Shown here one piece after another: positions 9,450 through 47,233 of a DNA stretch of 64,000 nt (position 1 is its first letter; every line of letters starts with the position of its first letter). The DNA lies in assembly GCA_003246365.1 (NCBI GenBank), contig QKAN01000184.1:1-64000 (forward strand). The letters are read 5' to 3'. Source of the stretch: Clostridia bacterium. Lineage in GTDB: Bacteria; Bacillota; Clostridia; Christensenellales; CAG-138. Below the pieces are notes generated by a model. It saw only the letters and a program-made list of their open reading frames with translations. It did not search any database and was not told the DNA's origin. The position numbers and the translations under genes were made by a program.

Positions 9450-10637
9450 TTGCTGAACGATTTTGATTTTTGTTCTTATACACGATGTGTTTTCGGGAAA
9501 GACGCGGAACGAAAAGCAGGCAAACTACTCTTGGAAGACGGCGCGAAAAAAGTGCTTGTCATTCACGATGATGGTGCTTTTTTAAAGGAAAGCGGTATCC
9601 TGACAAACGTTTTTCAGGATCTAACCGATGCAGGGCTGGAATATGTTGACTTCGGTGGTGTTCGTCCTTGCCCACTGCGCAGTCATTGCGTAAAGGGTAT
9701 TGAAACATATCGAAACGAGGGTTGCAATTACCTGCTGGCGGTTGGCGGCGGCAGCGCAATTGACACCGCAAAAGCGATTGCGGCAGGCGTTACATACGAC
9801 GGTGATTTTAACGATATGTTTTCTCAGGATATCGGCGTCGACGTTTCGCGCAAACCGCATGTCGCAGTTATCGTTACCATAGCGTCAACCGGCAGCGAAA
9901 CGGGATTTGCCTGCATCATATATGACGATACCAAACCCGGGTTGCAGTTCGGTTCGGGGATTCGCGCGACGGGCAATTTATTGCGCCCCGAAATCGCGTT
10001 TATGAATCCGGCGTTGACCGCCACCGTTCCGCCGTATCAAACCGCGTGCGGCATTGTAGATATGTTCGGTCATGTTTGCGAACGGTATATTACCGTAATT
10101 GACTACGGCGTCGTCGATTATCTGGCGGAAGGGTTGATGCGTTCAATCGTTGACTTCGGGCAAAAGGTGATTCGAAATCCGGGAGATTTGGAGGCGCGCG
10201 GCGAGCTGCTCTGGGCGGCCAGTCTTGCGCACAACGATACGGTCGGCGTCGGACGAAATAAAGATTTCGGAGCGCATTCCGTTGGCGGCGCATTTGGTCC
10301 GTTGTTCGGAACCGTGCACGGCGCAACAATTTCCGTGGTTATGGCTTCTTGGATGCGCCATATCTATAAACAACACATCGACCGCTTTGTCCGGTATGCC
10401 GTGGAAGTTTGGCATGTCGAAAACGATCCTGCGAATCCCGATCGCGTAGCGCTCGAAGGGATTGCAAGAACGGAACAATTCTTCCGCTGTATCGGTGCGC
10501 CGACGAATTTTAAAGAAGCCGGCATCCCGATGGACAACATCGAAGAAATCGCAAAGTATGCCGGCGGTGGACGCGTCATAAAACTAGGTTATGACGATGT
10601 GCTCTCAATTTTGTGGGCTGCCGCAGGAATGAAATAA
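9450..10637 (+). CDS. Iron-containing alcohol dehydrogenase, butanol dehydrogenase (BDH/YqhD) type
   Basis: A 395-residue group III alcohol dehydrogenase that reduces aldehydes with NAD(P)H. The nucleotide-binding GGGSAIDTAKAIA lies near residue 110. The metal ligands are visible as DMFGH (Asp and His) and two later histidines in HSVGGAFG and VHGATIS. The start is a TTG preceded by GGAGGGG six bases away; no better start exists. It is followed by a long bidirectional terminator, so it is monocistronic. It may be used for fermentative aldehyde disposal; the natural substrate is not visible. A second member of the family is at 47234-48457 and is only distantly similar. Confidence 0.85.
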   Translation: MLNDFDFCSYTRCVFGKDAERKAGKLLLEDGAKKVLVIHDDGAFLKESGILTNVFQDLTDAGLEYVDFGGVRPCPLRSHCVKGIETYRNEGCNYLLAVGGGSAIDTAKAIAAGVTYDGDFNDMFSQDIGVDVSRKPHVAVIVTIASTGSETGFACIIYDDTKPGLQFGSGIRATGNLLRPEIAFMNPALTATVPPYQTACGIVDMFGHVCERYITVIDYGVVDYLAEGLMRSIVDFGQKVIRNPGDLEARGELLWAASLAHNDTVGVGRNKDFGAHSVGGAFGPLFGTVHGATISVVMASWMRHIYKQHIDRFVRYAVEVWHVENDPANPDRVALEGIARTEQFFRCIGAPTNFKEAGIPMDNIEEIAKYAGGGRVIKLGYDDVLSILWAAAGMK

Positions 10638-14257: not shown

Positions 14258-15301
14258 TTACACTGCGGGCGGCGGAACAATGTTGGTCCAGTTGCCGCTT
14301 TGGAAATAATCTTCGATGCACTTTGCTACGATTTTAAATGTAATATCGAATATGTTGGAGCAATCTCCCGCAAGATGCGGCGTAATCGTAACGTTATCAA
14401 GGCCGACAAACGGGCTGGTAGCCGGAAGCGGTTCCTCTTTGAAAACATCCAGCGCGGCTCCGCCGATCTTTTTGTTCTTCAGCGCATCCAGCAGAGCGTC
14501 TTCGTCGATCAGCTCCGCGCGAGCGGTGTTGACGACAAACGCGGTCGGTTTCATCAACTCAAAATGCTTTGCGCTAAGAAGACCTTTTGTTTCTTCCGTC
14601 AGGCGATAATGCATGCAGAGCACATCCGCTCTTTTACAGAGCTCGTCGAGTTCAACAACTTCGTATCCTTTTTCTTTCAATGCGGCGGCGTTCGCATATG
14701 GATCATACACAAGAACGCTGGCTTCCATCGCGTGCATGACCTTCGCAACGCGCGCACCGACAGCGCCGCACCCGATAATGCCTATTGTAGCACCATCAAT
14801 GTTAATGTTATAAGGACGGTTCGGAAACTTGTTGTTCCAAACGCCTTTGGAGAGCAGCGAATACCCGCGCGCAATGTTCTTCATCTCCGCAATAATAAGC
14901 CCTACCGTATATTCAGAAACGGGAACCGCCAATCTGCCCGGTGCGTTGATGACGCGAACATTTGCTTTGGCAGCCTTCGCGCGGTCTACGTTTTCTACGC
15001 CGCTGCGCAGAATGCAGACGGCTTCCACATTGCCGCCCTCAAAGGCAGCGGAAGGCACAGGCGCCATCGCGGTAACGATAATGTTTGCGGAGCTCAGCGC
15101 GGCAATATATTCCGGCGTATATTCAAACGAATCCGGCCCCATCTTTTCCATTTGACGGTTTCTCATCAAACCGGTATTGCTTTCAATTACGCATTCGTCG
15201 ATAAACTCAACTTCAGCGCCTGCTACATCATTCAGGAAGCCGAACCGCTTCATCTTCTCCGCGTTTCCACTCTGGAGAATTACCATGACTTTTTTGCTCA
15301 T
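14258..15301 (-). CDS. D-isomer-specific 2-hydroxyacid dehydrogenase (phosphoglycerate dehydrogenase-like)
   Basis: A 347-residue NAD-dependent enzyme that interconverts a 2-hydroxyacid and a 2-oxoacid. The cofactor motif GIIGCGAVGARVA and the catalytic residues are visible: Arg in RSGVENVD, Glu in DVFKEEP and His in TPHLAG. There is no ACT domain, so it is not a regulated serine-pathway SerA. It is the last gene of the catabolic minus operon, 47 bases after a zinc dehydrogenase. A paralogue of the same length class ends the divergent plus operon (31477-32571), which suggests both operons handle substrates that yield a 2-oxoacid or hydroxypyruvate-like product. Confidence 0.85.
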   Translation of the reverse strand: MSKKVMVILQSGNAEKMKRFGFLNDVAGAEVEFIDECVIESNTGLMRNRQMEKMGPDSFEYTPEYIAALSSANIIVTAMAPVPSAAFEGGNVEAVCILRSGVENVDRAKAAKANVRVINAPGRLAVPVSEYTVGLIIAEMKNIARGYSLLSKGVWNNKFPNRPYNINIDGATIGIIGCGAVGARVAKVMHAMEASVLVYDPYANAAALKEKGYEVVELDELCKRADVLCMHYRLTEETKGLLSAKHFELMKPTAFVVNTARAELIDEDALLDALKNKKIGGAALDVFKEEPLPATSPFVGLDNVTITPHLAGDCSNIFDITFKIVAKCIEDYFQSGNWTNIVPPPAV

Positions 15302-15348
15302 GACTTTTTTGTTTCCTTTCCCTTGCGCGTTTCTGTTGCGCCTATGCG

Positions 15349-16500
15349 TTATGATTCAAACGTTAATACGCCCTTGAGATAATCCGGGTTTGCCATGAGC
15401 TTTGCCGTCGGCACCAACCCTTCGAGCGTATGGAATTCATGCGTAACGAGCTTTTCGAAAGGAATCTCTTTCCAGCGCATCAAAAAGCGCATCGTGCGGT
15501 TGAAGCATGCGGGCGTGTTTGCGCTTACGCTGGTGAGATGCACATTCTTCTTGAACACAAGCCGGTTTGAAAGCGTCGGCGTATCCGCATTGATTGCGCC
15601 AATTTCAACATATGTGCCGAGCTTGCGGATCATATGCAGTCCCTCTATGGTAGCGCTCGGGTGATTTGCCGCGCCGATTACGATATTCGGGCCACCGCAG
15701 GTTGCCTCCTGAACGAGTGCAACTTTCTGTTCCAATGTCAATTTGGAGGTGTTGATCACCATGTCCGCACCGGAAATCGCCTTGGCATTTTCCAGCTTTT
15801 CATCCAGAAAATCAAGATAAACAAGCTGCTCAACGCCCATTTCCTTCAGGATCATGCCCGCCATAATACCAATCGGGCCTGCGCCGATGATTAAGCAACG
15901 GCTGGAAATCGAATACCCTTCCGCAAGACCGCCGATGCTCGTCATAACCTGTTCAACAGCGCGCATTGCAACCGCACAGGGATCGAGCAGAACGCCGATT
16001 TTCGCCGGCATGTCGTCCGGCACTTTCCAGACATACGTATTTGCAAAAATATGTACATACTCTGCAAATCCGCCTTTAAAGTGGGGCCATACCGTCGGGT
16101 CGTTGTTCTTGATGTCGCTGGTGTTCACTTTGCCGCCGCCATACATGAAGTCGTTGTCGCAAACGCAAACGCCGTTGCCGTATGTCATGCAAACGTCGCA
16201 CTTGCCGCATGTGATATGCGGATAAACGACGATTCGGTCGCCAATATTCAGCGTTCCGCCATAGGAATGGATCGCTTCGTTCGCGTTTTTGCCCATGGCA
16301 ACGATTTTTCCGAGAAATTCGTGCCCGATGGTGCGCGGTTTCGCCGGTTTTGTCGTCAGATTATGTTGATCCGAACCGCAAATAGCGGCGGCCTCAACTT
16401 TGATGACTAAGCCGTCGTCCAACGGTTCCGGAATCGGGTATTCCTGAATTTCAACATCCAGCACGTCTTTTATGACAGCTATTTTCGCCATATTACCCAT
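15349..16500 (-). CDS. Zinc-dependent MDR alcohol/polyol dehydrogenase
   Basis: A 383-residue medium-chain dehydrogenase, probably oxidising a polyol or sugar alcohol with NAD. The catalytic zinc site shows AAICGSDQHN and IGHEF, and the structural zinc lobe is present (CGKCDVC, then a fourth Cys). The Rossmann motif is IIGAGPIGIMAG. The first ATG (16500) is supported by GGGAGG seven bases upstream. It lies between the MFS transporter gene and the 2-hydroxyacid dehydrogenase in the minus catabolic operon. Sorbitol/threonine-dehydrogenase-like by family; the substrate is not visible. Confidence 0.85.
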   Translation of the reverse strand: MGNMAKIAVIKDVLDVEIQEYPIPEPLDDGLVIKVEAAAICGSDQHNLTTKPAKPRTIGHEFLGKIVAMGKNANEAIHSYGGTLNIGDRIVVYPHITCGKCDVCMTYGNGVCVCDNDFMYGGGKVNTSDIKNNDPTVWPHFKGGFAEYVHIFANTYVWKVPDDMPAKIGVLLDPCAVAMRAVEQVMTSIGGLAEGYSISSRCLIIGAGPIGIMAGMILKEMGVEQLVYLDFLDEKLENAKAISGADMVINTSKLTLEQKVALVQEATCGGPNIVIGAANHPSATIEGLHMIRKLGTYVEIGAINADTPTLSNRLVFKKNVHLTSVSANTPACFNRTMRFLMRWKEIPFEKLVTHEFHTLEGLVPTAKLMANPDYLKGVLTFES

Positions 16501-16573
16501 GATAAGCCTCCCGTTTTTGTCTTTCTCAATTTATTCTTTCTCAATTTATTCAAGCTTTAATAGTTTCTCTTGA

Positions 16574-17812
16574 TTAGGCTTTTATCGCTCTGCTCTCAAA
16601 TTCTAATTCCGTGTTGCGAATCGGTTTCCTTGCGATAATTAATATTGCCGCCGCGATCCCGATCGGAATCATCACAAGGCGGAACATCATCGCATATCCA
16701 AGCGTTCCCGCGATTACACCGGCAAGAATCGGCCCGACGAAGCTGCCCAGATCGATTGCAATAAAGCTGGTGTTGCTCGCAACGCCGCGTTTGTCATCCG
16801 AAACAGATTTTACGCACAGCGTCTGCATTGCCGGTTGGCAGGTTCCCTGACCGATTCCGCCAAAGAACGCGGCAATCAGGAACACCGCAAGCGTCTGTGC
16901 AATGCTGATCAGGTAGAAACAAATCATAAAACAAACCATTGCCGGAACGACAACTTTTACTACTCCGATTCGATCCATCAATTTGCCAAACAATGGTCTG
17001 GTGACCAACATCACGAGCGCGTTGATCGTGTAATATGCGCCGATTTGTACCGCAAGGTTGGTTCCAAGATTTTCGCCAAGGTTTTTTGCGTAAATATTTA
17101 AGAAGGAAGATATGCTCATTGCAGCCATCATGATTAAAAACAGAACGATTGCCGGCAAAACCGCTTCTTTCGAAAATATACTCTTAATCGAAATTTTAAA
17201 TGCTTTTTTGGAAACATGCACATGTTTTATCATCGTCGCCATCAACGCGCCGATGATCATGCCAGCACTGCCGATGATAAACAAATAGTGATATCCGACC
17301 GCATCGATCAACCAGAGGCCGATCGTCGGCCCGATACTCATCGAAATAACCTGTCCCAGCGAGAAATAACCGATGCCTGTTCCCATTTTGTCGGAAGGCA
17401 GCGCTTCCGCTGCGAGCGCAAGGCATGTGCCGGATGCAAGCGCCTGCCCGATTCCCTGTACCAGCCGGAATACGACCAGCAGCGAGATCGAGCTCGAAAG
17501 ACTATAGCCAAAGTAAGAGATCGCGAGGACACCCATCGCGATAATTACCAGAATTTTCTTGTTGAATGTCTCCATTGCAGGGCCCGCAAATACCCTGAAG
17601 AGCAATGCGGTAATTGCGAACATGCTTACGACGATACCGACCATTGCTTCAGAAGCTTGAAGATAATCTGCATAACGCGCAACGACGCTCTGGACAACCG
17701 ATTGACTTAACTGCATTAGTATGTTTGCCATAAAAATGCTGATAAATGTCGGATTCCATACTTTTGTATAGGATCCTAATTCAATCGGTGATACGGTTTC
17801 TTGTTTGTTCAC
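16574..17812 (-). CDS. Major facilitator superfamily transporter
   Basis: A 412-residue membrane protein with 12 predicted transmembrane segments and the MFS loop motif GKLMDRIGVVKV after segment 8. The start is GTG with AGGAG six bases upstream. In this operon it most likely imports the free substrate of the dehydrogenases and FGGY kinase, or exports a product. A nested hairpin at 17893-17943 lies in the 201-base gap before it, so its mRNA level may differ from that of the upstream dehydrogenase gene. Confidence 0.88.
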   Translation of the reverse strand: MNKQETVSPIELGSYTKVWNPTFISIFMANILMQLSQSVVQSVVARYADYLQASEAMVGIVVSMFAITALLFRVFAGPAMETFNKKILVIIAMGVLAISYFGYSLSSSISLLVVFRLVQGIGQALASGTCLALAAEALPSDKMGTGIGYFSLGQVISMSIGPTIGLWLIDAVGYHYLFIIGSAGMIIGALMATMIKHVHVSKKAFKISIKSIFSKEAVLPAIVLFLIMMAAMSISSFLNIYAKNLGENLGTNLAVQIGAYYTINALVMLVTRPLFGKLMDRIGVVKVVVPAMVCFMICFYLISIAQTLAVFLIAAFFGGIGQGTCQPAMQTLCVKSVSDDKRGVASNTSFIAIDLGSFVGPILAGVIAGTLGYAMMFRLVMIPIGIAAAILIIARKPIRNTELEFESRAIKA

Positions 17813-17892
17813 TTTGTCTCCTAACTCACATGCATCTCGGTCGAATTTCTTCCGGTTCCGAACGTGTTTCTCAACGAATATTAAACGTATTC

Positions 17893-17943
17893 AGGCGGCC
17901 CGAAAGTCTCGCCACCGAACGGTGGCGGACTGCCGCGCCGCCT
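17893..17943. repeat. Nested inverted repeat in the gap between zinc dehydrogenase and MFS genes
   Basis: An outer stem AGGCGGC (17893-17899) / GCCGCCT (17937-17943) encloses an inner hairpin CGCCACCG / CGGTGGCG (17910-17927). No T-run follows on the minus strand. It could stabilise mRNA ends, act as a weak terminator or be a protein-binding site. Confidence 0.5.
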
Positions 17944-18013
17944 GTCCTATTTCATCAAATGTGTTTTTTGCCCGTGCGTATAGCTGCTTAGCATCCGGAC
18001 AAAAAACAGCTGA

Positions 18014-19075
18014 TCAGATATCCTGCAGGTCTACGGTAACGCGGTACATATCGGGCTTAGTCGCATGTTTGTATGCTTCCTGAAGATCTTTCAGGCCGTA
18101 GGTGACACCTTCCCAACCAAACGCCGCGTCAACCAGTTTAGCGTTGATCAGCTTTGCGGCAAGCGCAACATCCTGAACGTCCGCGCCGATTGTTCCGATA
18201 ATTTCCGAACGGCGATAGTGAACTTCGTTCGGATCCATATCCATCTCAGGTTTCGGATGGCCTGCCGAGAAGAGCAGGAAGCGGCCGTCGCTCTGTTTGA
18301 GCATCTTGTACGCCTGATTGTAAGCAGCGGTGAGGCCAACGCATACGGTAACCGCATCCGCGCCGACGCCGTCGGTCAATTCAAACACTTTCTCAACGGG
18401 ATCACACTCTCTCGAATCGATTACGTCCGCCCAGCCCAAATCACGGGCGCGCGCCAGTTTCTTATCGGAGAGCTCGGTGATGATCACGCGCGCGCCATAA
18501 GCATGCGCCGCAAGCGCGTTCATCATACCCATTGTACCCGCACCGACAACAACGATGTTTTCGCCGGGTTGTGCGCGGAGCTTTCTCATGCCGTTGATGG
18601 CAGCGGAGAGCGGTTCAAGGAACGAGCAAAGATGCGCGGGAATCAGCTTGTTCATTTTCACCAGTTCGTCCTGGTTACGAATGCTGAAGTTGCTGAATCC
18701 GCGTCCGCCGCGATATCCGTTGATGATCGGATGCGGGCCGTGAGGCGCGGTGCAGCCGGTCGGTTGACCCATGCGGCAGGGAATGCAGTGACCGCAGCGG
18801 CCGCCGCAAGGCCCGACATAATCGCCAACTTTGTAAACCGAAACGTTATCGCCAACTGCGATTACTTCTCCACACCATTCGTGGCCAGCAGCCATCGGGA
18901 AACCCATGTGGTTTCTTTTGCCGTCCCACTGCTGATAGTCCGTCGTGCAGATGTTGCACGTAAGCATCTTTACAAAAACATCGTCCGGACCCATCTCGCC
19001 GATCGGTTCTTCATGTACTTCGGCGACTTTAGGTTCTACGATTACGCCCATTCTACGAGTTTTCGGTAGTTCCAT
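18014..19075 (-). CDS. Zinc-dependent MDR dehydrogenase
   Basis: About 353 residues from the ATG at 19075. That start is chosen because the paralogue at 36389-37474 begins at the aligned position (MELPKTRR against MLPDKIHF); an alternative ATG at 19090 has no ribosome site. The catalytic zinc site shows CNICTTDYQQ and GHEW; the structural lobe shows CGGRCGHCIPC and a fourth Cys; the NAD motif is GAGTMGMMNALA. It follows the FGGY kinase by 177 bases. It probably oxidises a polyol or sugar to a ketose that the kinase then phosphorylates. The strong likeness to 36389-37474 suggests related substrates. Confidence 0.85.
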   Translation of the reverse strand: MELPKTRRMGVIVEPKVAEVHEEPIGEMGPDDVFVKMLTCNICTTDYQQWDGKRNHMGFPMAAGHEWCGEVIAVGDNVSVYKVGDYVGPCGGRCGHCIPCRMGQPTGCTAPHGPHPIINGYRGGRGFSNFSIRNQDELVKMNKLIPAHLCSFLEPLSAAINGMRKLRAQPGENIVVVGAGTMGMMNALAAHAYGARVIITELSDKKLARARDLGWADVIDSRECDPVEKVFELTDGVGADAVTVCVGLTAAYNQAYKMLKQSDGRFLLFSAGHPKPEMDMDPNEVHYRRSEIIGTIGADVQDVALAAKLINAKLVDAAFGWEGVTYGLKDLQEAYKHATKPDMYRVTVDLQDI

Positions 19076-19252
19076 GTTGTTACCCCACATTCTAAATAGT
19101 ATTCTTTTTGGTTTCTGTTATGATCACGCCGCTGCAATCGTCCATTAGCTTGTGGCTTTTTGTCTTACTGTTTAATTGGAAAATTGCAGCGGTACTGTTT
19201 TTGATGAATTGAAATCCTTGAACATCTCCCGCATATTCAGCCGATTCTAAAA

Positions 19253-20713
19253 TCAGGAATGAAACAGCGGATAAAGCGGCTCCTGCGCCTCATATACCTT
19301 TTCGTATAAACTAATAAGTTCTTTGTATCGTTCGTGGTGTTCCGGGTTTGGAATAGTGAGGGATGTGATGCTGTTAAATTTTTCGATTTCGCTGATGTCC
19401 CGGTAAACACCGATGCCGATTCCGCCAAGTACAGCAGCGCCCTTTGCCGCGGTAAATTCGGAATTTTCCATCGTTACGAGTTCTACGTTCATGATATCGG
19501 CAAACGTCTGACGGATATTTTTTCCTTTGCTCATGCCGCCGATGAACGGCGCGCGTTTCACAACGACGCCAACATCACGAACATGCTGCATGCAAAGATT
19601 TAAATTGAATCCGATTCCTTCTATGACGCTGCGCATGATATCTTCGCGCGTGGTGCTGAGCGATAACCCAACGAACGACCCGCGCGCGGAAGGATTGTTC
19701 AGCACACCGCGCTCCCCTTGCAAATACGGATGGAACATTACGCCGTTTGAGCCGATCGGCGCCTGATCGATCTTTTCATCGATCAAACTAAATACATCCT
19801 CGCCCTTGGAAGCGGCAATTTGCTCTTCCTCCGCGCAAAACACGTTTTTCAGCCAAACCATTGCGGCGCCGGTAGACGATGTGCCGCGAATGTTCACCTT
19901 TTTTCCATCCAGTCCGATGGCGCCAACGCCACCGGACGTACCCGCATTCAAGCATACGTCGCCGCTCTTGATCATGCCCGTTCCAACACTGGAGCAGTAG
20001 CCGTCCGATGCGCCGATTACAAGCCGCGTACCTGGAGCAAGTCCGCATTCATCCGCGATGTTCGCCGGAACGGTTGCCACTACATCGGTCGATCGATGCA
20101 GTTCGGGCAGCATGCTTTCCGGAATGTCAAGCAACTTGAGTAAATCATAGGACCAACCACTCCGGTCGGGGGTTGCCATTGCCATACTCCAGGCGATGTC
20201 GGTGTCTGTCATGGCTCTTCCGGCAAGACGCATCAATACATAATGGCTGTTTGCGCCGATCACTTTCGCGGTTTTCTGAAATACATCCGGCCAATTCTTG
20301 CGGATCCATTGTAGTGCAACCAGCGTTCGGGACGGCCCCAGGACACCACGCCCATCGAGCAGCTCAGGTGGTAGTCGCTCAATGATTTCGCTTGACTCTG
20401 CGGTGGCGCGGTTGTCCTGCCAAATGATTGCTTTGTGCAATGGCTTAAGCTCATCATCTACGCACAGGCAATTGGGGCACGTTCCGCTGAAAGAGACGCA
20501 CAATGCACTCGATTTGTCGATTCCGTCGAGGAGGATCTTATTATTTGCACAAAACGCTTTCCACCAGTCTTCTGGGTCTTGTTCCGCCCATGTGGAATGC
20601 TCCCGGTAAACCGGATAACTCACCGTATTGCTGCGCACCATCTTTCCGTCGACGGTAAAAAGCGCTGCTTTTGCGGAACTGGTTCCGAAATCGTGTGCAA
20701 TAATATAATCCAT
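19253..20713 (-). CDS. FGGY-family carbohydrate kinase (xylulokinase-like)
   Basis: A 486-residue kinase with the actin-like ATPase fold. The N-terminal phosphate loop AHDFGTSSAKAALF and the catalytic Asp in GASDGYCSSVGTG are visible, and NAGTSGGVGA forms the adenosine-side loop. It lies 19 bases after the aldolase gene, so the two are co-transcribed. The likely job is phosphorylation of a ketose made by the neighbouring dehydrogenases before aldol cleavage. Xylulokinase-like by overall motif order, but it is not a close match to any one substrate class that can be judged by eye. Confidence 0.87.
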   Translation of the reverse strand: MDYIIAHDFGTSSAKAALFTVDGKMVRSNTVSYPVYREHSTWAEQDPEDWWKAFCANNKILLDGIDKSSALCVSFSGTCPNCLCVDDELKPLHKAIIWQDNRATAESSEIIERLPPELLDGRGVLGPSRTLVALQWIRKNWPDVFQKTAKVIGANSHYVLMRLAGRAMTDTDIAWSMAMATPDRSGWSYDLLKLLDIPESMLPELHRSTDVVATVPANIADECGLAPGTRLVIGASDGYCSSVGTGMIKSGDVCLNAGTSGGVGAIGLDGKKVNIRGTSSTGAAMVWLKNVFCAEEEQIAASKGEDVFSLIDEKIDQAPIGSNGVMFHPYLQGERGVLNNPSARGSFVGLSLSTTREDIMRSVIEGIGFNLNLCMQHVRDVGVVVKRAPFIGGMSKGKNIRQTFADIMNVELVTMENSEFTAAKGAAVLGGIGIGVYRDISEIEKFNSITSLTIPNPEHHERYKELISLYEKVYEAQEPLYPLFHS

Positions 20714-20732: not shown

Positions 20733-21596
20733 TTATTCTTTCCAGGCCTTTCCGTTGCTGCCGTAGACTTTGATCATTTCCTTGAGCTTGTTCTTAAAGC
20801 CTTCTGTTGCAAGGGCAAACGCGTTGCCTTTTCCGCCGGAATTCATAACGTTGTCCATCGCCGCCATGCTCAGGTCCGTCGCGATGTTGACCTTGTTGAT
20901 GCCCATACGGCAAGCTTCGTAAAGCTGCTCAATCGGCGTGCCGGAGCTTCCGTGCAGAACGAGCGGGTAATCCTGACCAAGAATGCTCTTGATCGCCTTC
21001 AGGCGGTCAAAGTCAAGCTGCGGAACAACGCCTTTGGGATATGCGCCGTGTGCGGTGCCGATGGAAACCGCCAGGCAGTCTACGTCGGTTTCTTCAACGA
21101 ATCTCTTTGCTTCATCAACGTTGGTGTAAACAAAGTCAATCTGATCGCCTTCATCGCTCATGTTGGAAGTTTTGCCGACATGGCCGAGTTCTGCTTCGCA
21201 GGAAATGCCCGCGGCATGCGCCGCTTCGCAAACCTTTTTCACTTCAGCGATGTTTTCTTCCAGCGGCAGGGACGAACGATCGGCCATGACGGAAGTAACG
21301 CCGCACTGGATATTTCTGATGGCAGTGATGTAAGATCTGCCATGATCTTCGTTGATTGCGATCGGAACCGGCGAAAGAATGCAGCGCATGCGCATCCAGT
21401 CTGCAAATTCCCGCGGATACGGAACCTTTGTCGGTCCGATGTTATCAAAGTGTACGTCGAGAATGAGCGGTGCGTCAAGTTCTTCCGCGGCTTCGACCGC
21501 AGCGTTAACCTCGCACGCGTTGCCGACGTTCGGGGCTGCAATCGCATAATTTTCTGCGCTTGCACGAACCAAGAGTTCTTTCATTGTTACTAACAT
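20733..21596 (-). CDS. Class II fructose/tagatose-bisphosphate-type aldolase
   Basis: A 287-residue zinc aldolase of the FbaA/GatY/KbaY family, which cleaves a ketose (bis)phosphate to dihydroxyacetone phosphate and an aldehyde. The Asp-His pair is in NEDHG, where GatY has HLDHG, so the leading His is Asn while the zinc-ligand His is kept. Further zinc histidines are in GTAHG and LVLHGSSG, and the EAELGHVG motif is intact. It is the first gene of the minus catabolic operon, with AGGAGG six bases upstream of the ATG. Its promoter carries the 45-bp element shared with the ABC importer operon. Confidence 0.87.
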   Translation of the reverse strand: MLVTMKELLVRASAENYAIAAPNVGNACEVNAAVEAAEELDAPLILDVHFDNIGPTKVPYPREFADWMRMRCILSPVPIAINEDHGRSYITAIRNIQCGVTSVMADRSSLPLEENIAEVKKVCEAAHAAGISCEAELGHVGKTSNMSDEGDQIDFVYTNVDEAKRFVEETDVDCLAVSIGTAHGAYPKGVVPQLDFDRLKAIKSILGQDYPLVLHGSSGTPIEQLYEACRMGINKVNIATDLSMAAMDNVMNSGGKGNAFALATEGFKNKLKEMIKVYGSNGKAWKE

Positions 21597-21866: not shown

Positions 21867-21934
21867 CTTATACTATATACATTTTTTTCGAGCAATCCGT
21901 TTTCATCAACCGTTTATGCAGCAGTGGAAATAAT
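21867..21934 (-). promoter_or_regulatory. Promoter of the aldolase-FGGY operon with a 45-bp conserved upstream element
   Basis: On the minus strand TTGCTC (21895-21890), a 17-base spacer and TATAAG (21872-21867) form a promoter with a poor -35 box, as expected for activator dependence. The block 21890-21934, which begins at the -35 box and runs upstream, matches 45379-45423 at 41 of 45 positions. Inside it AAACGGTT and AAACGGAT repeat with a 13-bp period. This is the clearest shared regulatory site in the window. Confidence 0.75.
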
Positions 21935-22171: not shown

Positions 22172-22447
22172 TTATTCCACGTTCGATTTCTTTAGATCGG
22201 CGGCCTCCTCGACCAGTTGTGAATGGATTTCTACCAGTTGCTGGGCATACGGTAAAAAAAGTATGCCGAATTCATTGATTTCGACAGCCCGGGTTGTGCG
22301 GTTGAGCAGGGGCGCGCCTATCTCCCGTTCCAGATATTTCATATGCTTGGTCAGAGTCGCGGACGAAATGGACAGGAGTTCAGCTGTTTTTTTGAATTCT
22401 CCGGTTTTAACCAACGCCAGGAATTCCGCTATATAACTTAGCCTGAT
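22172..22447 (-). pseudogene. Stand-alone LysR winged-helix fragment with ATC at the expected start codon
   Basis: Read from 22447 the frame gives about 91 residues that match the N-terminal DNA-binding domain and linker helix of LysR regulators (KTAELLSISSATLTKHMKYL, then LNRTTRAVEI and FLPYAQQLVEI). It stops just where the effector domain should begin. The codon that aligns with the start of the LysR gene at 35346 is ATC (22447-22445). An AGGAG lies exactly nine bases before it, while ATG, GTG and TTG are absent until 22414. It looks like a decayed gene or a small DNA-binding-only regulator with a non-standard or mutated start. It is clearly a relative of the LysR gene just upstream. Confidence 0.6.
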
Positions 22448-22507: not shown

Positions 22508-23461
22508 TTATTCTCGCGTCCTGTCGATATAGGATCTGATGTATTTCAAAAAGTTGTTTCCTGCCGCGCTGGCCATGTCTTTTCTGAATATCAGATCGAT
22601 ATAAACCTTCGTTGTCGGTTTGATGTCCATAACGATGGTGTTCGAGCGGCAAAGATACGTCGCGTTTTTCTTTAGATGAAGCGTAATGCACAAACCTTGC
22701 CCGACGAGACCGATATTGACGCGTCCGGTTGTTTTATAGGGTGCGATCTTTGGCGAAAATCCCGCCTTCTTAAACGCATATGTGCAAATCTTATGCAAAT
22801 CACCGTTTTTCAGCGGCAATAAAAATCCCTCGTTTTGTATTTGATCGAACGAAACGGATTTTTCTTTCGCCAGAGGATGTTCCGACGACATCAACGCCGA
22901 AAGCACATCTTCCGCAAACCGGAGTTTTGCAAATTCACCCGCAGGGTCACCGTGCACGCCGAGGACAAACGCAAAATCACATTCTCCCGAACTGACCATC
23001 TTCTTTAACGTGCAAGACTCGTGTTCCACGCTGTCGATCTCTATCTTCGGATATTCTTTCGCGAAACTGCCGATCGGATCGGAAATGTTATAGGCGGCGA
23101 TGCCCGGAAACACGCCGATCGTCAGCTTTCCGTTGATGTCTTTGGCTTTTTGCGCGAATGCCGCGTTGCACTCTTCATAAACCTTGGTCATGCGCTGCGC
23201 ATAAGGCAGAAGTCGGGCGCCGGCTTTCGTTAGTTCAATCGTTCTCGTCGTACGTTTAAACAAAGGCAACCCGAGATTCTTTTCCAGTTGCATAATATGT
23301 CTGGATAAAGAGGGTTGCGAAACAAACAAGTCCTCTGCCGCCTGAAGGAAATTCTTCGTTTCAGCCAGCACAAGAAACTCGCGAATGATTTCTACTGTTA
23401 TGTTGTCTTGACCATCAAGATTGTCTGGGCCGTCCCAGTGTTCCATGTCATCCATAGGCAT
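22508..23461 (-). CDS. LysR-family transcriptional regulator
   Basis: A 317-residue regulator. The helix-turn-helix FLQAAEDLFVSQPSLSRHIMQLEKNL covers about residues 36-62, preceded by a roughly 20-residue acidic N-terminal extension (DDMEHWDGPDNLDGQDN) that is unusual for the family. A type-2 periplasmic-binding-like effector domain follows (GKLTIGVFPG onward). Either the ATG at 23461 or that at 23455 could be the start; GGGGG lies just upstream. Its promoter is a full-consensus TTGACA-N17-TATAAT. It sits between the two divergent catabolic operons, so it is a candidate activator of the aldolase operon and the ABC importer through the shared 45-bp element. That target is inference. Confidence 0.88.
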   Translation of the reverse strand: MPMDDMEHWDGPDNLDGQDNITVEIIREFLVLAETKNFLQAAEDLFVSQPSLSRHIMQLEKNLGLPLFKRTTRTIELTKAGARLLPYAQRMTKVYEECNAAFAQKAKDINGKLTIGVFPGIAAYNISDPIGSFAKEYPKIEIDSVEHESCTLKKMVSSGECDFAFVLGVHGDPAGEFAKLRFAEDVLSALMSSEHPLAKEKSVSFDQIQNEGFLLPLKNGDLHKICTYAFKKAGFSPKIAPYKTTGRVNIGLVGQGLCITLHLKKNATYLCRSNTIVMDIKPTTKVYIDLIFRKDMASAAGNNFLKYIRSYIDRTRE

Positions 23462-23742: not shown

Positions 23743-24621
23743 TTAATCCGCGTCTATAGGCTTATCTTTATATTCCGCATAAAGCTGCGGTAAAAACGTG
23801 CTCAAATGCTGCGCTTCAACGGTGTTATGAATCAACACCAACTTCAGCCTGTCGTTTGAAAGCTTGTATGCCGGGGTATCTTTGTCGCGCCGAATGTTTC
23901 CTTCAATCAAGCCATATCCCGGCCAGGACAGCGTAAGTTTCTCCATTCCCCCCGAGGAATGCGGACGGGATATCGACACCGAAAAGGTTGATCCCGGAAT
24001 AGGCGTGTGCGGTTCCTGAAGCGTCCGGTTCTTAATCGTTGCAGCGTCGATGGTTACGCCTGCGCTTTTCAACGTCTTCTCAACTTGCTCCGTCAGACCG
24101 AGTTCCCTGAGATTTACCGGGGACAGAACAGAGTATGACATGTTGCCAAGACCATGCTCTGATGCGCCGTAGTTCAAATCCTGCGACTCAATCGTGAATA
24201 CGCCGTTGCGGCTGTCCTTACCGTTGACAAACCCGTGGGTAAAGTGATCGGCTGGGCACCATATTTTATATCGTATATTTCCGGTTCCTTCCGGCTGACT
24301 TTTTGAGGGCGTATTGATCCAGTTCAGGTACCATTTCATCATCGTCTGGGTACAGTTCGGGTAGTATGCATATTGCGCAATATATCCGCTCCCGTCCTCC
24401 ATCTGACAATAGCCAAAGCTTTTTCTTTGATATACATCGGGCAGTTGCAGATGTTCGAGCCATCTGTCAATGCTGAGCGCATCTTTTTCGGGATCGAGCG
24501 GGCCGGCATCTATGATTTGCCGATATAAAGGACCAAGTTCGTGAAGCGGCAAATTATAGTACTTTGCAAGCGGTAGTTTTCGCTCTTTCGGGCTTAATTG
24601 CGGTCGGTTCGTTATCATCAC
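23743..24621 (-). CDS. DAPG/phloretin hydrolase-like C-C bond hydrolase (PhlG family)
   Basis: A 292-residue cytoplasmic protein resembling PhlG (2,4-diacetylphloroglucinol hydrolase) and the phloretin hydrolase of Eubacterium ramulus, zinc enzymes that cut a carbon-carbon bond next to a carbonyl on a phenolic ring. The shared landmarks are EDGSGYIAQY, RYKIWCPADHF with the first metal His (about 126 or 129), a Glu near 145 and the C-terminal HNTVE pair (His265, Glu269), which matches the HxxxE of PhlG. Start is GTG 24621 or ATG 24618, with AAAGGAG upstream. It stands alone between the LysR gene and the divergent plus operon. The substrate is unknown; family assignment is from motif memory. 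Confidence 0.7.
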   Translation of the reverse strand: MMITNRPQLSPKERKLPLAKYYNLPLHELGPLYRQIIDAGPLDPEKDALSIDRWLEHLQLPDVYQRKSFGYCQMEDGSGYIAQYAYYPNCTQTMMKWYLNWINTPSKSQPEGTGNIRYKIWCPADHFTHGFVNGKDSRNGVFTIESQDLNYGASEHGLGNMSYSVLSPVNLRELGLTEQVEKTLKSAGVTIDAATIKNRTLQEPHTPIPGSTFSVSISRPHSSGGMEKLTLSWPGYGLIEGNIRRDKDTPAYKLSNDRLKLVLIHNTVEAQHLSTFLPQLYAEYKDKPIDAD

Positions 24622-32571: not shown

Positions 32572-32623
32572 AAGATTTCAGTACACAGAATCATTTCATG
32601 AGCCCCTAATAACCCCCACAACG

Positions 32624-32653
32624 TAAAAGCAGACAGATAACTGTCTGCTTTTA
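32624..32653. terminator. Bidirectional intrinsic terminator of the plus catabolic operon
   Basis: A perfect 13-bp stem TAAAAGCAGACAG / CTGTCTGCTTTTA with an ATAA loop. It separates the plus operon from the convergent minus gene at 32732-33565. Confidence 0.88.
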
Positions 32654-32731
32654 CTTTGGAGAGAAGGATCTTTGGAGTATGCGCTATTGCGTTTTTCGTG
32701 AAAGGGCAAATGCCTTTCAACGAAACTATAA

Positions 32732-35345: not shown

Positions 35346-36239
35346 TTGGATATTGAATATATTCGTGAGTTTGTCGTTCTCGCCGACATAGGCGGCTTTC
35401 AAAAGGCGGCGGAACAGCTTTATATTTCCCAATCCTCCCTGTCTCAGCATATCAAGCGTCTTGAAATGGAACTGGGCGCAAGGCTCTTTAACAGAACAAC
35501 GAAAATGGTGGAACTTTCTGATTTCGGAAAAATCTTTTTGCCATATGCGACGCAGATTTCGAATTTACAGGAACAATATACGGAAAAGCTGAAATCCGCT
35601 CTGAAAAACAGCCAAAAGAGCATCACCATTGGCTCCATGGAATTGCTCGACTTATACAACATCACCGATATTCTGGCAAAGTTCAAAAAGAAAAATCCGG
35701 AATACTCCGTCAATGTGATTCAGGGAAAGACAAAATATCTTGAATCGCTTTTGCGGCGAAACCAATGCAGCATGATCGTAATCCGCGAGTTGAGCGATCA
35801 GGAAAACGTCGAATTTAACAAAGTGACGTATGCGGTAGACCCGCTTGTTGCGGTTCTTCCGGCAAACCATCCGCTCGCCGGCCTCGATCATATGTCTGTT
35901 GCAAATCTGAAGGACGAGCCGTTTATCATGTTTTCCGAACGTTCTCTCACCTACAACCTCTGCACGCAACTCTGCAAAGAAGCAGGATTTGAGCCGAACA
36001 TCGCCTTCACATTCGGACGCACCGGAAACGTTTTAAACATGATTGAAAAAGAGATGGGCGTGAGCATCATGACAAGAAAAATGCTGCAGGAGATCCCGAC
36101 GCATTCGATCGCTGCGGTTCCGATTGAACCCGCGGTTTCCGTGTATGTCAACATCCTTTATCCGAAGGCGGACACCCTTCCGCTTGCCGCGCGGCTGTTT
36201 CTGGACTGTGCGCTTGAAGCGCCTCTTGTGATCAAATAA
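35346..36239 (+). CDS. LysR-family transcriptional regulator
   Basis: A 297-residue regulator of normal length. The helix-turn-helix FQKAAEQLYISQSSLSQHIKRLEMEL covers about residues 18-43, followed by a linker helix and an effector domain (SITIGSMELLDLYN onward). The start is TTG with AGGAGGA upstream; a TTG start commonly keeps regulator levels low. It is divergent from the FGGY kinase at 33611-35038 across overlapping promoters with a T-N11-A box, and upstream of a zinc dehydrogenase and an aldo/keto reductase on its own strand. Those are its likely targets. Confidence 0.9.
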   Translation: MDIEYIREFVVLADIGGFQKAAEQLYISQSSLSQHIKRLEMELGARLFNRTTKMVELSDFGKIFLPYATQISNLQEQYTEKLKSALKNSQKSITIGSMELLDLYNITDILAKFKKKNPEYSVNVIQGKTKYLESLLRRNQCSMIVIRELSDQENVEFNKVTYAVDPLVAVLPANHPLAGLDHMSVANLKDEPFIMFSERSLTYNLCTQLCKEAGFEPNIAFTFGRTGNVLNMIEKEMGVSIMTRKMLQEIPTHSIAAVPIEPAVSVYVNILYPKADTLPLAARLFLDCALEAPLVIK

Positions 36240-39607: not shown

Positions 39608-40561
39608 TTATCCGTTGATCTCTCTTGCTCTGCAGCAGGATACGAAGTGATTCGGCGCGAGCTCCTCGAGCACTTGCGGTTGTTTGCAGGCGTCGGTCGC
39701 ATAAATGCATCTCGGCGCAAACCGGCAGCCTGGTCCGGGATCGATAGACGATGTAATCTCGCCTTTCAGCATGATGCGGCTCAGCGGTTCGTGAATGTTT
39801 GTTGACGGAATCGCGGAGAGCAGCGCCTTTGTATAGGGGTGAAGCGGTGCTTTAAACAGCTCTTTCGTGGGACTTGTTTCTACCAGCTGGCCAAGGTACA
39901 TAACGCAGATGTTATGCGAAATATGTCGCACAACCGACAGGTCATGCGTTACGAACATGAACGTCAGCTGCTTTTCATCCTGCAAATCCATCAGCAAATT
40001 CAGAATCTGCGCTTGAATGGAAACATCCAGTGCCGATACCGGTTCATCGCAAACGACAAATTCGGGGTTGAGCGCAATTGAACGGGCAATCGCGACGCGT
40101 TGACGTCTGCCGCCGTCCATTTCATGCGGATAGGCAAGCTGAAGGCGTTCTTCAATGCCGACCAAGCGCATCAGTTCGGAAACCTTTTCCTCTATCTCCT
40201 TGTTGCTGTATTTACCGGAAATTTTCAAAGGTTCCCGTATCGTGCTCTTAACCGTTTTACGCGGATCGATGGACGAGTATGGATCCTGAAAAATATACTG
40301 CATCGCTTCACGTGTCCGCTTCAGCTCTTTTCCTTTTACATCCGTTACGTCTATTCCGTTTAAAAATATCTTTCCGCCCGTTGGTTCCAGAAGATGGATA
40401 ATCGTTCTGCCCAGCGTCGATTTGCCGCAGCCGGACTCGCCGACAACGCCCATCGTCTGGCCTTTTTCAATTTTGAAGGTCACGTCGTCAACCGCATGGT
40501 TCAAGCCGGACGCAACTTTGAAATATTTCTTCAGGTGTTGTATTTCAATTGAAGTAGGCAT
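39608..40561 (-). CDS. oppF: Opp/Dpp-type ABC importer, ATPase F
   Basis: A 317-residue ATPase of the peptide/nickel importer family. Walker A GESGCGKSTLGRTI, Walker B PEFVVCDEPVSALD and the C-terminal Cys-rich GCRFAPRCIYATDACK typical of OppF are visible. The signature motif reads MDGGRRQR where most have LSGGQRQR. The start abuts the stop of the D subunit gene. It powers import with the D subunit. Members of this importer family carry oligopeptides or oligosaccharides; shared control with the aldolase operon suggests a sugar-containing cargo here. Confidence 0.9.
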   Translation of the reverse strand: MPTSIEIQHLKKYFKVASGLNHAVDDVTFKIEKGQTMGVVGESGCGKSTLGRTIIHLLEPTGGKIFLNGIDVTDVKGKELKRTREAMQYIFQDPYSSIDPRKTVKSTIREPLKISGKYSNKEIEEKVSELMRLVGIEERLQLAYPHEMDGGRRQRVAIARSIALNPEFVVCDEPVSALDVSIQAQILNLLMDLQDEKQLTFMFVTHDLSVVRHISHNICVMYLGQLVETSPTKELFKAPLHPYTKALLSAIPSTNIHEPLSRIMLKGEITSSIDPGPGCRFAPRCIYATDACKQPQVLEELAPNHFVSCCRAREING

Positions 40562-41548
40562 TTATTTACCCTCCTTCGCGTCAATATTGCAGCAGTAGCA
40601 TTTATGGCCGGGCGCTACTTCCACCGCCTCGATTTCGCCATGACGGCAGGCCTCGATTGCAAATCTGCAACGCGGATGGAACTTGCAGCCGGCGGGCAAA
40701 TCCCGCGGATCCGGCGGCAGGCCCTTAATCGGTTTGAGTCGGGTTTTATCCTCGTTCATGCTCGGTAAAGAATTGAACAACCCGATGGTATACGGATGTT
40801 TCGGATTATCAAAAATTTCCTCGCGCGTGCCGGATTCAACAATCTGTCCCGCGTAAATGATTGCGACTTTGTTGCAAGTTTGCGCAACGATGCCGAGATC
40901 ATGCGTGATTAAGATCATCGCGGTGCGGAACTTCGTCTTCAGCGCGCTGATCATTTCGAGCACCTGCGCTTGAATCGTAACATCCAAAGCTGTCGTCGGC
41001 TCGTCTGCCAGTAAGAGCTGCGGATTGCAAGCAAGCGCCATCGCGATGACCACGCGCTGTTTCATGCCGCCGGAAAACTCATGCGGATATTCTTCCGCGC
41101 GCTTTCCTTCGATTCCGACCATCTCCAGCATTTTGATCGCCGCTTTATCGGCTTCCGATTTGGAGCATTTTTCGTGGATCTGTATGACTTCGGAAATCTG
41201 GCTGCCGATGTTCATCGTCGGGTTCAACGCAGTCATCGGATCCTGGAAAATCATCGCTTCTTTTTTACCGCGAATCTTCAGCATCTCTTTTTCGTGGAGT
41301 TTTAAGAGATCTTTTCCGTCAAGGATAATTTCTCCGCTCTTCACCTTCGCGGGCGGGTCCGGCAGAATACGCATGATCGCTTTCGCAATCGTCGTTTTTC
41401 CCGCGCCGGTTTCGCCGACCAATCCAAGCGTTTCTCCTCTGTCGAGATCGATGCTGACTCCGTTTACCGCATGAATCACATCGCCGCCGGAAGTATATTC
41501 GACAACCAAATCTTTAATTTGCAGATAGGCTTCATTTGTAGTACTCAT
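40562..41548 (-). CDS. oppD: Opp/Dpp-type ABC importer, ATPase D
   Basis: A 328-residue ATPase with Walker A GETGAGKTTIAKAI, signature FSGGMKQRVVIAMALA, Walker B QLLLADEPTTALD and the C-terminal CKFHPRCRFAIEAC. GAGG precedes the ATG. It is 13 bases after the C permease gene and directly joined to the F gene. It forms the ATP-hydrolysing heterodimer with OppF on the inner face of the membrane. Confidence 0.92.
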   Translation of the reverse strand: MSTTNEAYLQIKDLVVEYTSGGDVIHAVNGVSIDLDRGETLGLVGETGAGKTTIAKAIMRILPDPPAKVKSGEIILDGKDLLKLHEKEMLKIRGKKEAMIFQDPMTALNPTMNIGSQISEVIQIHEKCSKSEADKAAIKMLEMVGIEGKRAEEYPHEFSGGMKQRVVIAMALACNPQLLLADEPTTALDVTIQAQVLEMISALKTKFRTAMILITHDLGIVAQTCNKVAIIYAGQIVESGTREEIFDNPKHPYTIGLFNSLPSMNEDKTRLKPIKGLPPDPRDLPAGCKFHPRCRFAIEACRHGEIEAVEVAPGHKCYCCNIDAKEGK

Positions 41549-41561
41549 TCAGGTTACCTCG

Positions 41562-42482
41562 TTAGTCCTTAAGCTTTGGATCCAGTGAATCACGCAGCCC
41601 GTCGCCAATCATGTTGATGCTCAACGCCGCAATCGCAATTGCAGCACCCGGCGCAATCAGCAGGAACGGATACTTTTGTATGAAGTTCTTGCCCGCGGAA
41701 AGCATCGCGCCCCATTCGGGAGCAGGCGGTTGAACGCCCAGACCCAGATAAGAAAGACCGGCGCACTGCATGATGACCGACGCGACTTTCATGGTTGTGG
41801 TGACGATAATCGGAGCCAGGATATTAGGCGTAACGTGCTTTGCCATAATACCGATCGGACTGCAGTTGATCGACCGCTCCGCTTCAATATATTCCATCGT
41901 CCGCTCTTTTAGGCACATGGCGCGTGCAATACGCACATAGGCGGGTATGTTTCCAATTATCATTGCTATGATCGTATTCACATAGCCTGCGCCAAGGCCG
42001 GTTGAAATCAAAATTGCAAGCAGCATGGACGGAATTGCCGACCAGATATCGATGATACGCATTGCGAAAATATCGACCGCACCACCGATATAACCGATTA
42101 ACACGCCAATTGCAAGGCCAATGATCGCCGCGCCGACTGCACCCGCAAGGCCGAGGCCCAACGACTGCCGCGCGCCATACATCAACCGCGTCAGAATATC
42201 TCTGCCGAGCTCGTCCGTTCCGAACAAATGGCTTGCGGAAGGAGCAGCATACATGTTTGCGATGTCCATCTCGTTGAAACCATAAGGCGTCAGCAGCGGA
42301 GCAAACGCGGCGCAAAACACCAGCAAGCCAAACAAGATTAAGCCGATCAGCGATTTATTGTTTTTAAAAAGACGTCTCATGACTTCCCGGAACATCGAAG
42401 TCTTTTTCAACGTTTTTGGTTTAATAACCGTGTCGCTCTTTCTTAACCGTTCCGTTAACTTTCTCTCTGCCATCTTGATCAC
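41562..42482 (-). CDS. oppC: Opp/Dpp-type ABC importer, permease C
   Basis: A 306-residue permease with an N-terminal tail and about six transmembrane segments; GTDELGRDILTRLMYGARQSL is the conserved stretch after the first periplasmic loop. The EAA loop (EAERSINCSPIGIMAKHVTPN) contacts the ATPases. The start is GTG 42482 (four-base overlap with the B gene stop) or ATG 42473; the latter has better ribosome spacing. It pairs with permease B. Confidence 0.9.
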   Translation of the reverse strand: MIKMAERKLTERLRKSDTVIKPKTLKKTSMFREVMRRLFKNNKSLIGLILFGLLVFCAAFAPLLTPYGFNEMDIANMYAAPSASHLFGTDELGRDILTRLMYGARQSLGLGLAGAVGAAIIGLAIGVLIGYIGGAVDIFAMRIIDIWSAIPSMLLAILISTGLGAGYVNTIIAMIIGNIPAYVRIARAMCLKERTMEYIEAERSINCSPIGIMAKHVTPNILAPIIVTTTMKVASVIMQCAGLSYLGLGVQPPAPEWGAMLSAGKNFIQKYPFLLIAPGAAIAIAALSINMIGDGLRDSLDPKLKD

Positions 42483-43417: not shown

Positions 43418-43456
43418 AAGTAATCCCTCAAGGTTCTTTAGAATAGTCCGTCTTAA

Positions 43457-43487
43457 AAAACAGGGCGGGGAGCGCCCGCCCTGTTTT
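43457..43487 (-). terminator. Intercistronic attenuator hairpin between binding-protein and permease genes
   Basis: AAAACAGGGCGGG (43457-43469) pairs with CCGCCCTGTTTT (43476-43487), and a run of six T follows on the minus strand. It looks like a complete intrinsic terminator inside the operon. Partial read-through would give much more binding protein than permease. Confidence 0.82.
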
Positions 43488-43497
43488 ACCAATTGCC

Positions 43498-45195
43498 TTA
43501 GTTAGGATTCACGTAGGTAAACGATCCGGGTTGATACTGGCTCTGCGGGCCTGCAAAGGTCAGGCTCTGGATCAGGTCTGTGCTGTAAACAGAGCAGAGG
43601 TACAGCTCACCGATGGTGTAGCAATATGCATTATCGATGACGTATTCGGCAAATGCCGCTTCGTTTTCCGGACTAAAGGTCGCAACGTGGCGCGCCGTGC
43701 TCAGCAGTTCGATCATCTGATCGTCCTGAATACCGGTCCAGTTCTGGCCTTCTACCGTGTTGCCGCTGCCGGAGTAATCAAAGTAGTTGTACCAAATGTT
43801 AACCATGTAGTCGTTGGAGTGCATCGCCATCAGGTCAATATCCCACGCAGAGAGATCGGAGCGGTTGCTCTTTTCAGTGCTGCTGTCAAGCGCCATGATT
43901 TCCGTGTTGATGCCGACGTTGTTCAGGCACTGTGCGATGTACTGCGCCATGGTCTTACGAGTGCCGCTGTTATCTGTGCTGTTGCACATAATGCGGATCG
44001 TTTCGCCGTTATAACCCGATGCTGCGATCATTTCTTTTGCCGCTTCGGTGTCAAAGTTGTGCTCAAAGTCGTCGCGTCCGGCCCAGATTGTCGGGTCATA
44101 GTCCGCATAACGGCTTCCACCGAGACCATACAGGGGGTTGCCCATGCCTGCGCCAAGCGCTGCCATGATCATATCGTGATCGATCGCATAGCCGATTGCA
44201 AGACGAAGGTTCTTGTCGCTCAAGGGGCTCAGAGAAGAGCAGTTGAAGAACATAACTTCGATATCGTTGGATGCGATGACATCAACGCCGAAGCCGTCCG
44301 AATACAGACCGCCCTGCATGAAGTCCGAGGCCACAGAGTAGGTAATCTGCGGTGCGAAATCCATTTCGTCGTTTACAAGAGAGATCTGCTTCTGCTGATC
44401 TTCGGAAACGAAGTAGTAAACAATCTTGCTGACGTTACCCATATCGATCGGGTGAATAACGGTGGAATCCGTCTGCCAGAAATTATCGTCTTTTTCCAGC
44501 GTAATGCTGACGCCAGGCGTATAATCGGTGATTTTATAGCGTCCAGTGCCGCATGCATCAGAAGCCAGGTTGGACGGGCTTGCATCAAATGCTGCTTTCG
44601 TCGCGCAGTCGGTGTTTCCTAGATAGTAGAATAATTCGCCGACGTTTTCAATAGGACCGCTCAAAGTGAACTGAACGGTTTGATCGTCAACCGCAACGAT
44701 TCCGGTGTCGATGTCAAGCTTCGGAACGTTGCTGGCATAGCCTTCCGCTTTCCACTGCTGATAGCTGAACACGACGTCGCTCGCGGTAAAGGCGTTGCCC
44801 GACTGATCGTGGATGCCGTCATAGAGGTGCACTGTGTAAACAAGACCGGTGCTGTCAACTTCGTAGTCTTTTGCAAGTACGCCGAAGAGCTGACCGTCAT
44901 TGCCCATGCCAAAGAGGCGCTGGTAAACCATAAAGAAGATGGACTTCTGCGATTTCGCACCGTAGAACGGGTCAAGGTTCGTCGGGTCTGTTCCGGCAAT
45001 GCGGATGGTGTCGGCTACGTAAGCAGCCTGATCTGTCGGTTCCGCTGTGGCCTCGCTGATAACACCGGTGTTAACAGCTGTGTTCGCGTCCTCGCTGTCG
45101 CTCGTTTGTGCCGCTGTGTTCGCGGCGCATCCGGTCATGATGCTCAATGCGAAAATAAGCACCAAGATGATTGGAACAATACGCTTTGCTTTCAT
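43498..45195 (-). CDS. oppA: Extracellular solute-binding lipoprotein, family 5 (Opp/Dpp)
   Basis: A 565-residue lipoprotein. The signal peptide ends in a lipobox IMTGCAAN, followed by a Ser/Thr/Ala-rich linker to about residue 55 and the SBP family 5 body (GTDPTNLDPFYG, VYTVHLYDGIHDQSGNAFTASDVVFSYQ). It captures the cargo outside the cell and hands it to the B/C permease. AGGAGGAG precedes the ATG. It is the first gene of the importer operon, behind the promoter that carries the 45-bp element shared with the aldolase operon. Cluster C proteins bind peptides, nickel or oligosaccharides; the cargo is inferred to be carbohydrate-linked. Confidence 0.9.
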   Translation of the reverse strand: MKAKRIVPIILVLIFALSIMTGCAANTAAQTSDSEDANTAVNTGVISEATAEPTDQAAYVADTIRIAGTDPTNLDPFYGAKSQKSIFFMVYQRLFGMGNDGQLFGVLAKDYEVDSTGLVYTVHLYDGIHDQSGNAFTASDVVFSYQQWKAEGYASNVPKLDIDTGIVAVDDQTVQFTLSGPIENVGELFYYLGNTDCATKAAFDASPSNLASDACGTGRYKITDYTPGVSITLEKDDNFWQTDSTVIHPIDMGNVSKIVYYFVSEDQQKQISLVNDEMDFAPQITYSVASDFMQGGLYSDGFGVDVIASNDIEVMFFNCSSLSPLSDKNLRLAIGYAIDHDMIMAALGAGMGNPLYGLGGSRYADYDPTIWAGRDDFEHNFDTEAAKEMIAASGYNGETIRIMCNSTDNSGTRKTMAQYIAQCLNNVGINTEIMALDSSTEKSNRSDLSAWDIDLMAMHSNDYMVNIWYNYFDYSGSGNTVEGQNWTGIQDDQMIELLSTARHVATFSPENEAAFAEYVIDNAYCYTIGELYLCSVYSTDLIQSLTFAGPQSQYQPGSFTYVNPN

Positions 45196-45355: not shown

Positions 45356-45423
45356 TATATACTTCATCGAATATAACTGAGCAATCCGTTTTCATGAACC
45401 GTTTATTCAACATTGGAAATAAT
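45356..45423 (-). promoter_or_regulatory. Promoter of the ABC importer operon with the shared 45-bp element
   Basis: Minus strand: TTGCTC (45384-45379), 17 bases, TATATA (45361-45356). The block 45379-45423 matches 21890-21934 at 41 of 45 positions, and in both places its edge is the -35 box followed by the same 17-base spacing. Spacer sequences differ, so the likeness is confined to the element. Confidence 0.75.
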
Positions 45424-46970: not shown

Positions 46971-47233
46971 TTTGTTGACGAAATAGTTATTTACCTCGTT
47001 ATTGCGATTATTTCGTTATGTGAAAGCTTCAACATCTGTTGTTCTTCGTATATTCAAATATATAAGAATCAATCATATGGTGCGCACTTTAAATATCACA
47101 AAATGTTATATCGTTTTTAATTATTAGAATTCGTACTATATGTTATGCGCTTTTAAAATTGCTTTTTGATCTGGATTGTCACTACAATAGAATTGAATTT
47201 AGATATTAACCATGGGTAAAGGAGAGATGAACG

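Follow-up and report, generated by a model that had tools for sequence, protein, structure and literature searches.

The 64-kb stretch of DNA analysed here (hereafter the window) carries two copies of a 45-base block, one upstream of an aldolase/FGGY-kinase operon and the other upstream of a family 5 ABC importer operon. Both copies stand in the same register before a promoter-like pair of hexamers, and the draft genome holds no third copy. We propose that the block is the predicted binding region of one activator, most likely of the LysR type; it would span about -74 to -30 and take in a poor -35 hexamer. That such an activator co-induces both operons is, in our judgment, slightly favoured; that it binds and activates, which regulator it is, and that both operons share an inducer are inferences from the sequence.

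A 45-base block in the same promoter register

The two blocks and the hexamers associated with them are the following.

21890..21934 (-): block copy 1, upstream of the aldolase operon, ATTATTTCCACTGCTGCATAAACGGTTGATGAAAACGGATTGCTC
45379..45423 (-): block copy 2, upstream of the ABC importer operon, ATTATTTCCAATGTTGAATAAACGGTTCATGAAAACGGATTGCTC
21890..21895 (-): -35-like hexamer TTGCTC of copy 1, matching TTGACA at 3/6 bases
21867..21872 (-): -10-like hexamer TATAAG of copy 1, 17 bases past TTGCTC
45379..45384 (-): -35-like hexamer TTGCTC of copy 2, the last six bases of the block
45356..45361 (-): -10-like hexamer TATATA of copy 2, 17 bases past TTGCTC

Ungapped alignment on the minus strand revealed that the copies are identical at 41 of 45 bases, with mismatches at block positions 11, 14, 17, and 28. 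The alignment bore out the first-pass annotation in its coordinates, block length and identity, as well as in the TTGCTC ends, the 17-base spacers, and the TATAAG and TATATA hexamers. That annotation had also described the surrounding DNA as unrelated, and the flanks 5' of the block and the spacers are indeed dissimilar between the two copies. Outside the block, the sole run shared in register is AGTATA, at the -10; a six-base shared run anywhere in the AT-rich spacer has a probability of about 0.04.

The block pair is real and far beyond chance. In an all-against-all search it was the strongest repeat of the 64-kb window (score 33), followed by a hairpin with a score of 28, while the best repeat in each of eight Markov shuffles of the window scored 16-18. 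Pairs this good are expected by chance about 3e-9 times per 64-kb window and about 9e-6 times per 3.4 Mb.

In both copies, TTGCTC-N17-TATAAG/TATATA fits a predicted sigma-70 promoter, with a weak -35 and a spacer within the range of 16-18 bp. No other sigma-70 promoter matching at least 9 of 12 bases was found in the leader of the aldolase operon or in that of the importer operon. These results, together with the presence of two copies genome-wide, support the earlier proposal of a shared activator-type promoter region 5' of both operons. The span of about -74 to -30 presumes that transcription starts seven bases past the -10, a position deduced from the hexamers. A search for Rfam families in either leader returned none, and on this ground the reading of the block as part of an RNA leader was rejected.

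Copy number in this and other genomes

A pattern search allowing up to three mismatches in 25 fixed bases recovered exactly two copies in the draft genome (3.4 Mb in 248 contigs, 87% complete, 6.5% contamination), and both stand 5' of operons. When the 68-base promoter region was modelled, each of these copies scored 68 bits and the next place in the genome 11 bits. Thus, the genome-wide search suggested by the first-pass annotation retrieved the two known copies and no unrelated ones lacking promoters. A weaker third copy was likewise not found above noise in either the window or the genome.

The same held for other genomes. Model searches yielded nothing above noise in seven congeners, and among 396 genomes of the order no other match rose beyond chance, with a best E-value of 8e-4. 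In the 395 other genomes of this set there were six matches, with E-values from 8e-4 to 0.008, about four being expected by chance. No other match passed 0.001 in 398 genomes of the phylum, and viral contigs contained no match. Exact matches to a 19-base core (43 in 85,000 species genomes) were dismissed as chance, as they come from many phyla and their flanks differ (best 21 versus 68 bits). The two-operon element is so far known only as this one pair in one genome. Its occurrence in no second species means that there is no evidence of selection on it.

The two operons

The genes downstream of the two copies are listed below.

20733..21596 (-): class II (FBP/tagatose-type) aldolase, first gene under copy 1 (PF01116, 2e-77)
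19253..20713 (-): FGGY kinase, xylulokinase-like (xylulokinase/gluconokinase type), 19 bases past the aldolase gene
14258..19090 (-): Zn-alcohol dehydrogenase, MFS transporter, second alcohol dehydrogenase, and 2-hydroxyacid dehydrogenase, putative operon members
43498..45195 (-): family 5 solute-binding protein, first gene under copy 2 (PF00496, 3e-57)
42479-43492 and 41562-42482 (-): Opp/Dpp/Nik-type permeases, next after the binding protein
40562-41548 and 39608-40561 (-): Opp/Dpp/Nik-type ATPases of the importer operon

Copy 1 lies about 290 bases from the aldolase gene and copy 2 about 180 bases from the gene for the binding protein. Gaps of 162 and 201 bases occur around the genes at 14258..19090, which are hence only putatively assigned to the first operon. 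The best aldolases found in other genomes were at most 50% identical. The genes under copy 1 and copy 2 are not paralogous, indicating that the block was not duplicated along with them.

Candidate regulators between the copies

The interval between the two copies contains three LysR-type open reading frames.

22508..23461 (-): LysR regulator, candidate activator
35346..36239 (+): LysR regulator, candidate activator, sister of 22508-23461
22172..22447 (-): HTH-only LysR open reading frame of about 91 aa (PF00126, 1e-11)

The two full-length regulators are 30% identical over 287 aa (E 4e-47), and at 1e-30 they had no relatives but each other in 103 genomes of the family. The HTH-only frame follows directly behind the full LysR gene and has a good Shine-Dalgarno sequence, AAAGGAG, but its start codon is probably ATT, so that it could represent either a small regulator or a remnant in decay. 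It is closer to copy 1 than 22508-23461 is, so the latter is not the nearest LysR-type gene, as had been claimed. We regard these three as equally eligible candidate regulators.

The genome encodes 12 LysR HTH domains, three of which (22265-22423, 23219-23383, and 35361-35531) fall between the copies, a clustering with a binomial P of 7e-5 for an interval that was chosen after the fact. The gene at 22508 is preceded by a perfect consensus promoter, TTGACA-N17-TATAAT (23551-23523, minus strand); another TTGACA, read the other way (23518, plus strand), overlaps it and makes a possible operator. LysR genes were also found near comparable genes elsewhere in this genome: about 2 kb downstream of its closest paralogous Opp operon (contig C220; OppF 65% identical), and on the same contig as another cluster of FGGY kinase, aldolase, and ABC importer genes (C61).

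Comparison with known systems and alternative readings

Two internal features of the block are relevant to the nature of its regulator.

21897..21915 (-) and 45386-45404 (-): AAACGG direct repeat with a 13-bp period, in copies 1 and 2
21914..21933 (-) and 45403-45422 (-): TTAT-N12-ATAA dyad, centred at about -64, in copies 1 and 2

LysR activators bind at two sites, a regulatory one around -65 and one for activation around -35 (PMC5603801). The footprint of BhbR1, a LysR regulator, covers -75 to -22 and is shortened to -75 to -33 in the presence of inducer (PMC12016517). The block, at about -74 to -30, spans the stretch that is protected in such promoters, with conservation here standing in for protection. 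It also resembles them in overlapping a poor -35, in having LysR genes close by, and in preceding catabolic and transport genes. The dyad TTAT-N12-ATAA, whose spacing is an even number of bases and which is the only conserved 4-bp dyad of the block, is a possible LysR regulatory binding site. Unlike LysR promoters, the block displays no clear T-N11-A palindrome in both copies beyond this weak dyad, and the T-N11-A at block positions 6/18 has no conserved flanking dyad. LysR genes are often adjacent to and divergent from their targets and self-regulated via the same site, an arrangement that is common but not universal. The LysR genes described here are near, yet divergent from neither target, and their own promoters were found to be without the element. 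Hence, we class the block as working like a LysR site and not as a proven member of the class.

The LysR cluster between the copies and the match of block position to LysR footprints are the reasons why a LysR activator is the most likely regulator and our best guess. When its ligand is present, such an activator would help RNA polymerase to use the weak TTGCTC-N17-TATAAG/TATATA promoters, and the aldolase/FGGY-kinase and importer operons would be co-induced as a two-operon local regulon. Both copies sit alike relative to the -35 and -10, and their spacers have one length but dissimilar sequences, which argues for an activator. Against it stands the fact that chance could account for the dyad as well as for the direct repeat: a dyad placed as near -65 as this one occurs in about 10% of shuffles, and a six-base repeat arises in 9% of shuffled blocks (P of about 0.09). 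The AAACGG repeat pointed out in the first-pass annotation is therefore present, with its 13-bp period, but is not significant alone. In addition, the LysR cluster could equally serve other sugar genes located between the copies.

It is unlikely that the same shared region is bound instead by an AraC-type or other activator, such as a response regulator, whose gene lies in another part of the genome. AraC/XylS-type class II sites consist of tandem direct half-sites about 21 bp apart, extend over about 40 bp, and overlap or adjoin the -35. The block agrees with them in its length of about 45 bp, its overlap with the -35, and its direct repeat, and the genome does encode 25 AraC HTH domains. However, the period of that repeat is 13 bp and not about 21 bp, no 21-bp periodicity was detected in the block (6-7 of 24 matches at a shift of 21, the background level), and the window encodes not one of these 25 domains. 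Meanwhile, a repressor whose operator overlaps the -35 and is relieved by an inducer would explain why that hexamer lies inside the block, but so poor a -35 (3/6) leaves little basal activity to repress, and most of the block is upstream of the promoter; we consider this improbable.

The high identity of the copies, their sharp edges, and their restriction to one genome are what would be expected from a promoter segment recently copied, by recombination or as a short mobile piece, without present regulatory meaning. An identity of 91% over 45 bp exceeds that of most pairs of sites of one regulator, suggesting that recent copying of the segment may have contributed. As a full explanation copying is quite improbable, given that both copies have the same orientation, the same register before the promoter, and equal spacers, that the spacers themselves were not copied, and that there is no third copy. 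The least probable readings, to which we give hardly any weight, take the blocks as att-site repeats on either side of an integrated element of 23.5 kb or as a short coding segment. The copies are direct repeats 23.5 kb apart and one frame is open through both of them, but the window has no tRNA gene and no integrase among its annotated genes; three of the changes between the copies fall at first codon positions, three of the four alter the residue, and the similarity ends at the block. Both were rejected on the absence of tRNA and integrase genes and on the codon pattern of the changes.

Substrate of the importer

The binding protein of the importer had no close relative, with no match at 1e-50 in 391 genomes of the class. 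Its nearest solved relative is AgaA (6hlx), a distant one with an E-value of 9e-22, and binders of peptides, opines, and chitin oligosaccharides rank below it among solved relatives. On contig C61 of this genome, and also in the relatives G002 and G018, related kinase/aldolase pairs are accompanied by ABC importer ATPases. The C61 cluster comprises an FGGY kinase, an RbsA-type ATPase, a permease, a sugar-binding protein, and a class II aldolase, the kinase and the aldolase being 27% and 39% identical, respectively, to those of the window. As proposed here for the window pair, a kinase and a class II aldolase are served there by an ABC importer, in this case within one cluster; unlike in the window, that importer is adjacent and of the CUT2 type, and the 45-bp block is absent.

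Downstream of the kinase/aldolase pair of the window, the only transporter gene encodes an MFS protein, and a co-controlled distant importer would fill this gap. It is plausible, with a probability we place a little short of even, that the importer carries the substrate of the aldolase/FGGY pathway. The more specific proposal, in which an Opp-type importer for a sugar or glycoside instead of peptides replaces the usual CUT2 system and forms a dedicated LysR two-promoter regulon with this pathway, a set known so far from this genome only, appears doubtful.

The linkage of importers to pathways by shared operators is already well established, and the block pair is ordinary in kind. It is nonetheless a clean lead for the assignment of a transporter substrate. 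If the proposed regulon is correct, the 45-base repeat links a transporter of unassigned substrate to a specific catabolic operon at a distance of 23 kb and provides three candidate regulators. In a lineage that is uncultured or little studied, this would help to annotate a transporter with a binding protein that lacks close relatives.

Other features

A nearly perfect 40-bp palindrome at 32619-32658 lies between convergent genes and is likely a bidirectional terminator. The open reading frame at 47234-48457 (plus strand) has a stretch coding for GGGSAIDTAK in common with the Fe-alcohol dehydrogenase gene at 9450-10637; it is probably the real gene, opposite a minus-strand frame at 47153-48427 that matched no Pfam family. 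Within the same order, a genome from a different family (G074, contig C11, locus L108) carries five tandem genes of the aldolase family found in the window, preceded by two Fe-alcohol dehydrogenase genes. Finally, the window encodes a relative of diacetylphloroglucinol/phloretin hydrolases at 23743-24621 on the minus strand (PF18089, 2e-21), with four FGGY kinases and a number of dehydrogenases around it; this may point to plant polyphenol glycosides.
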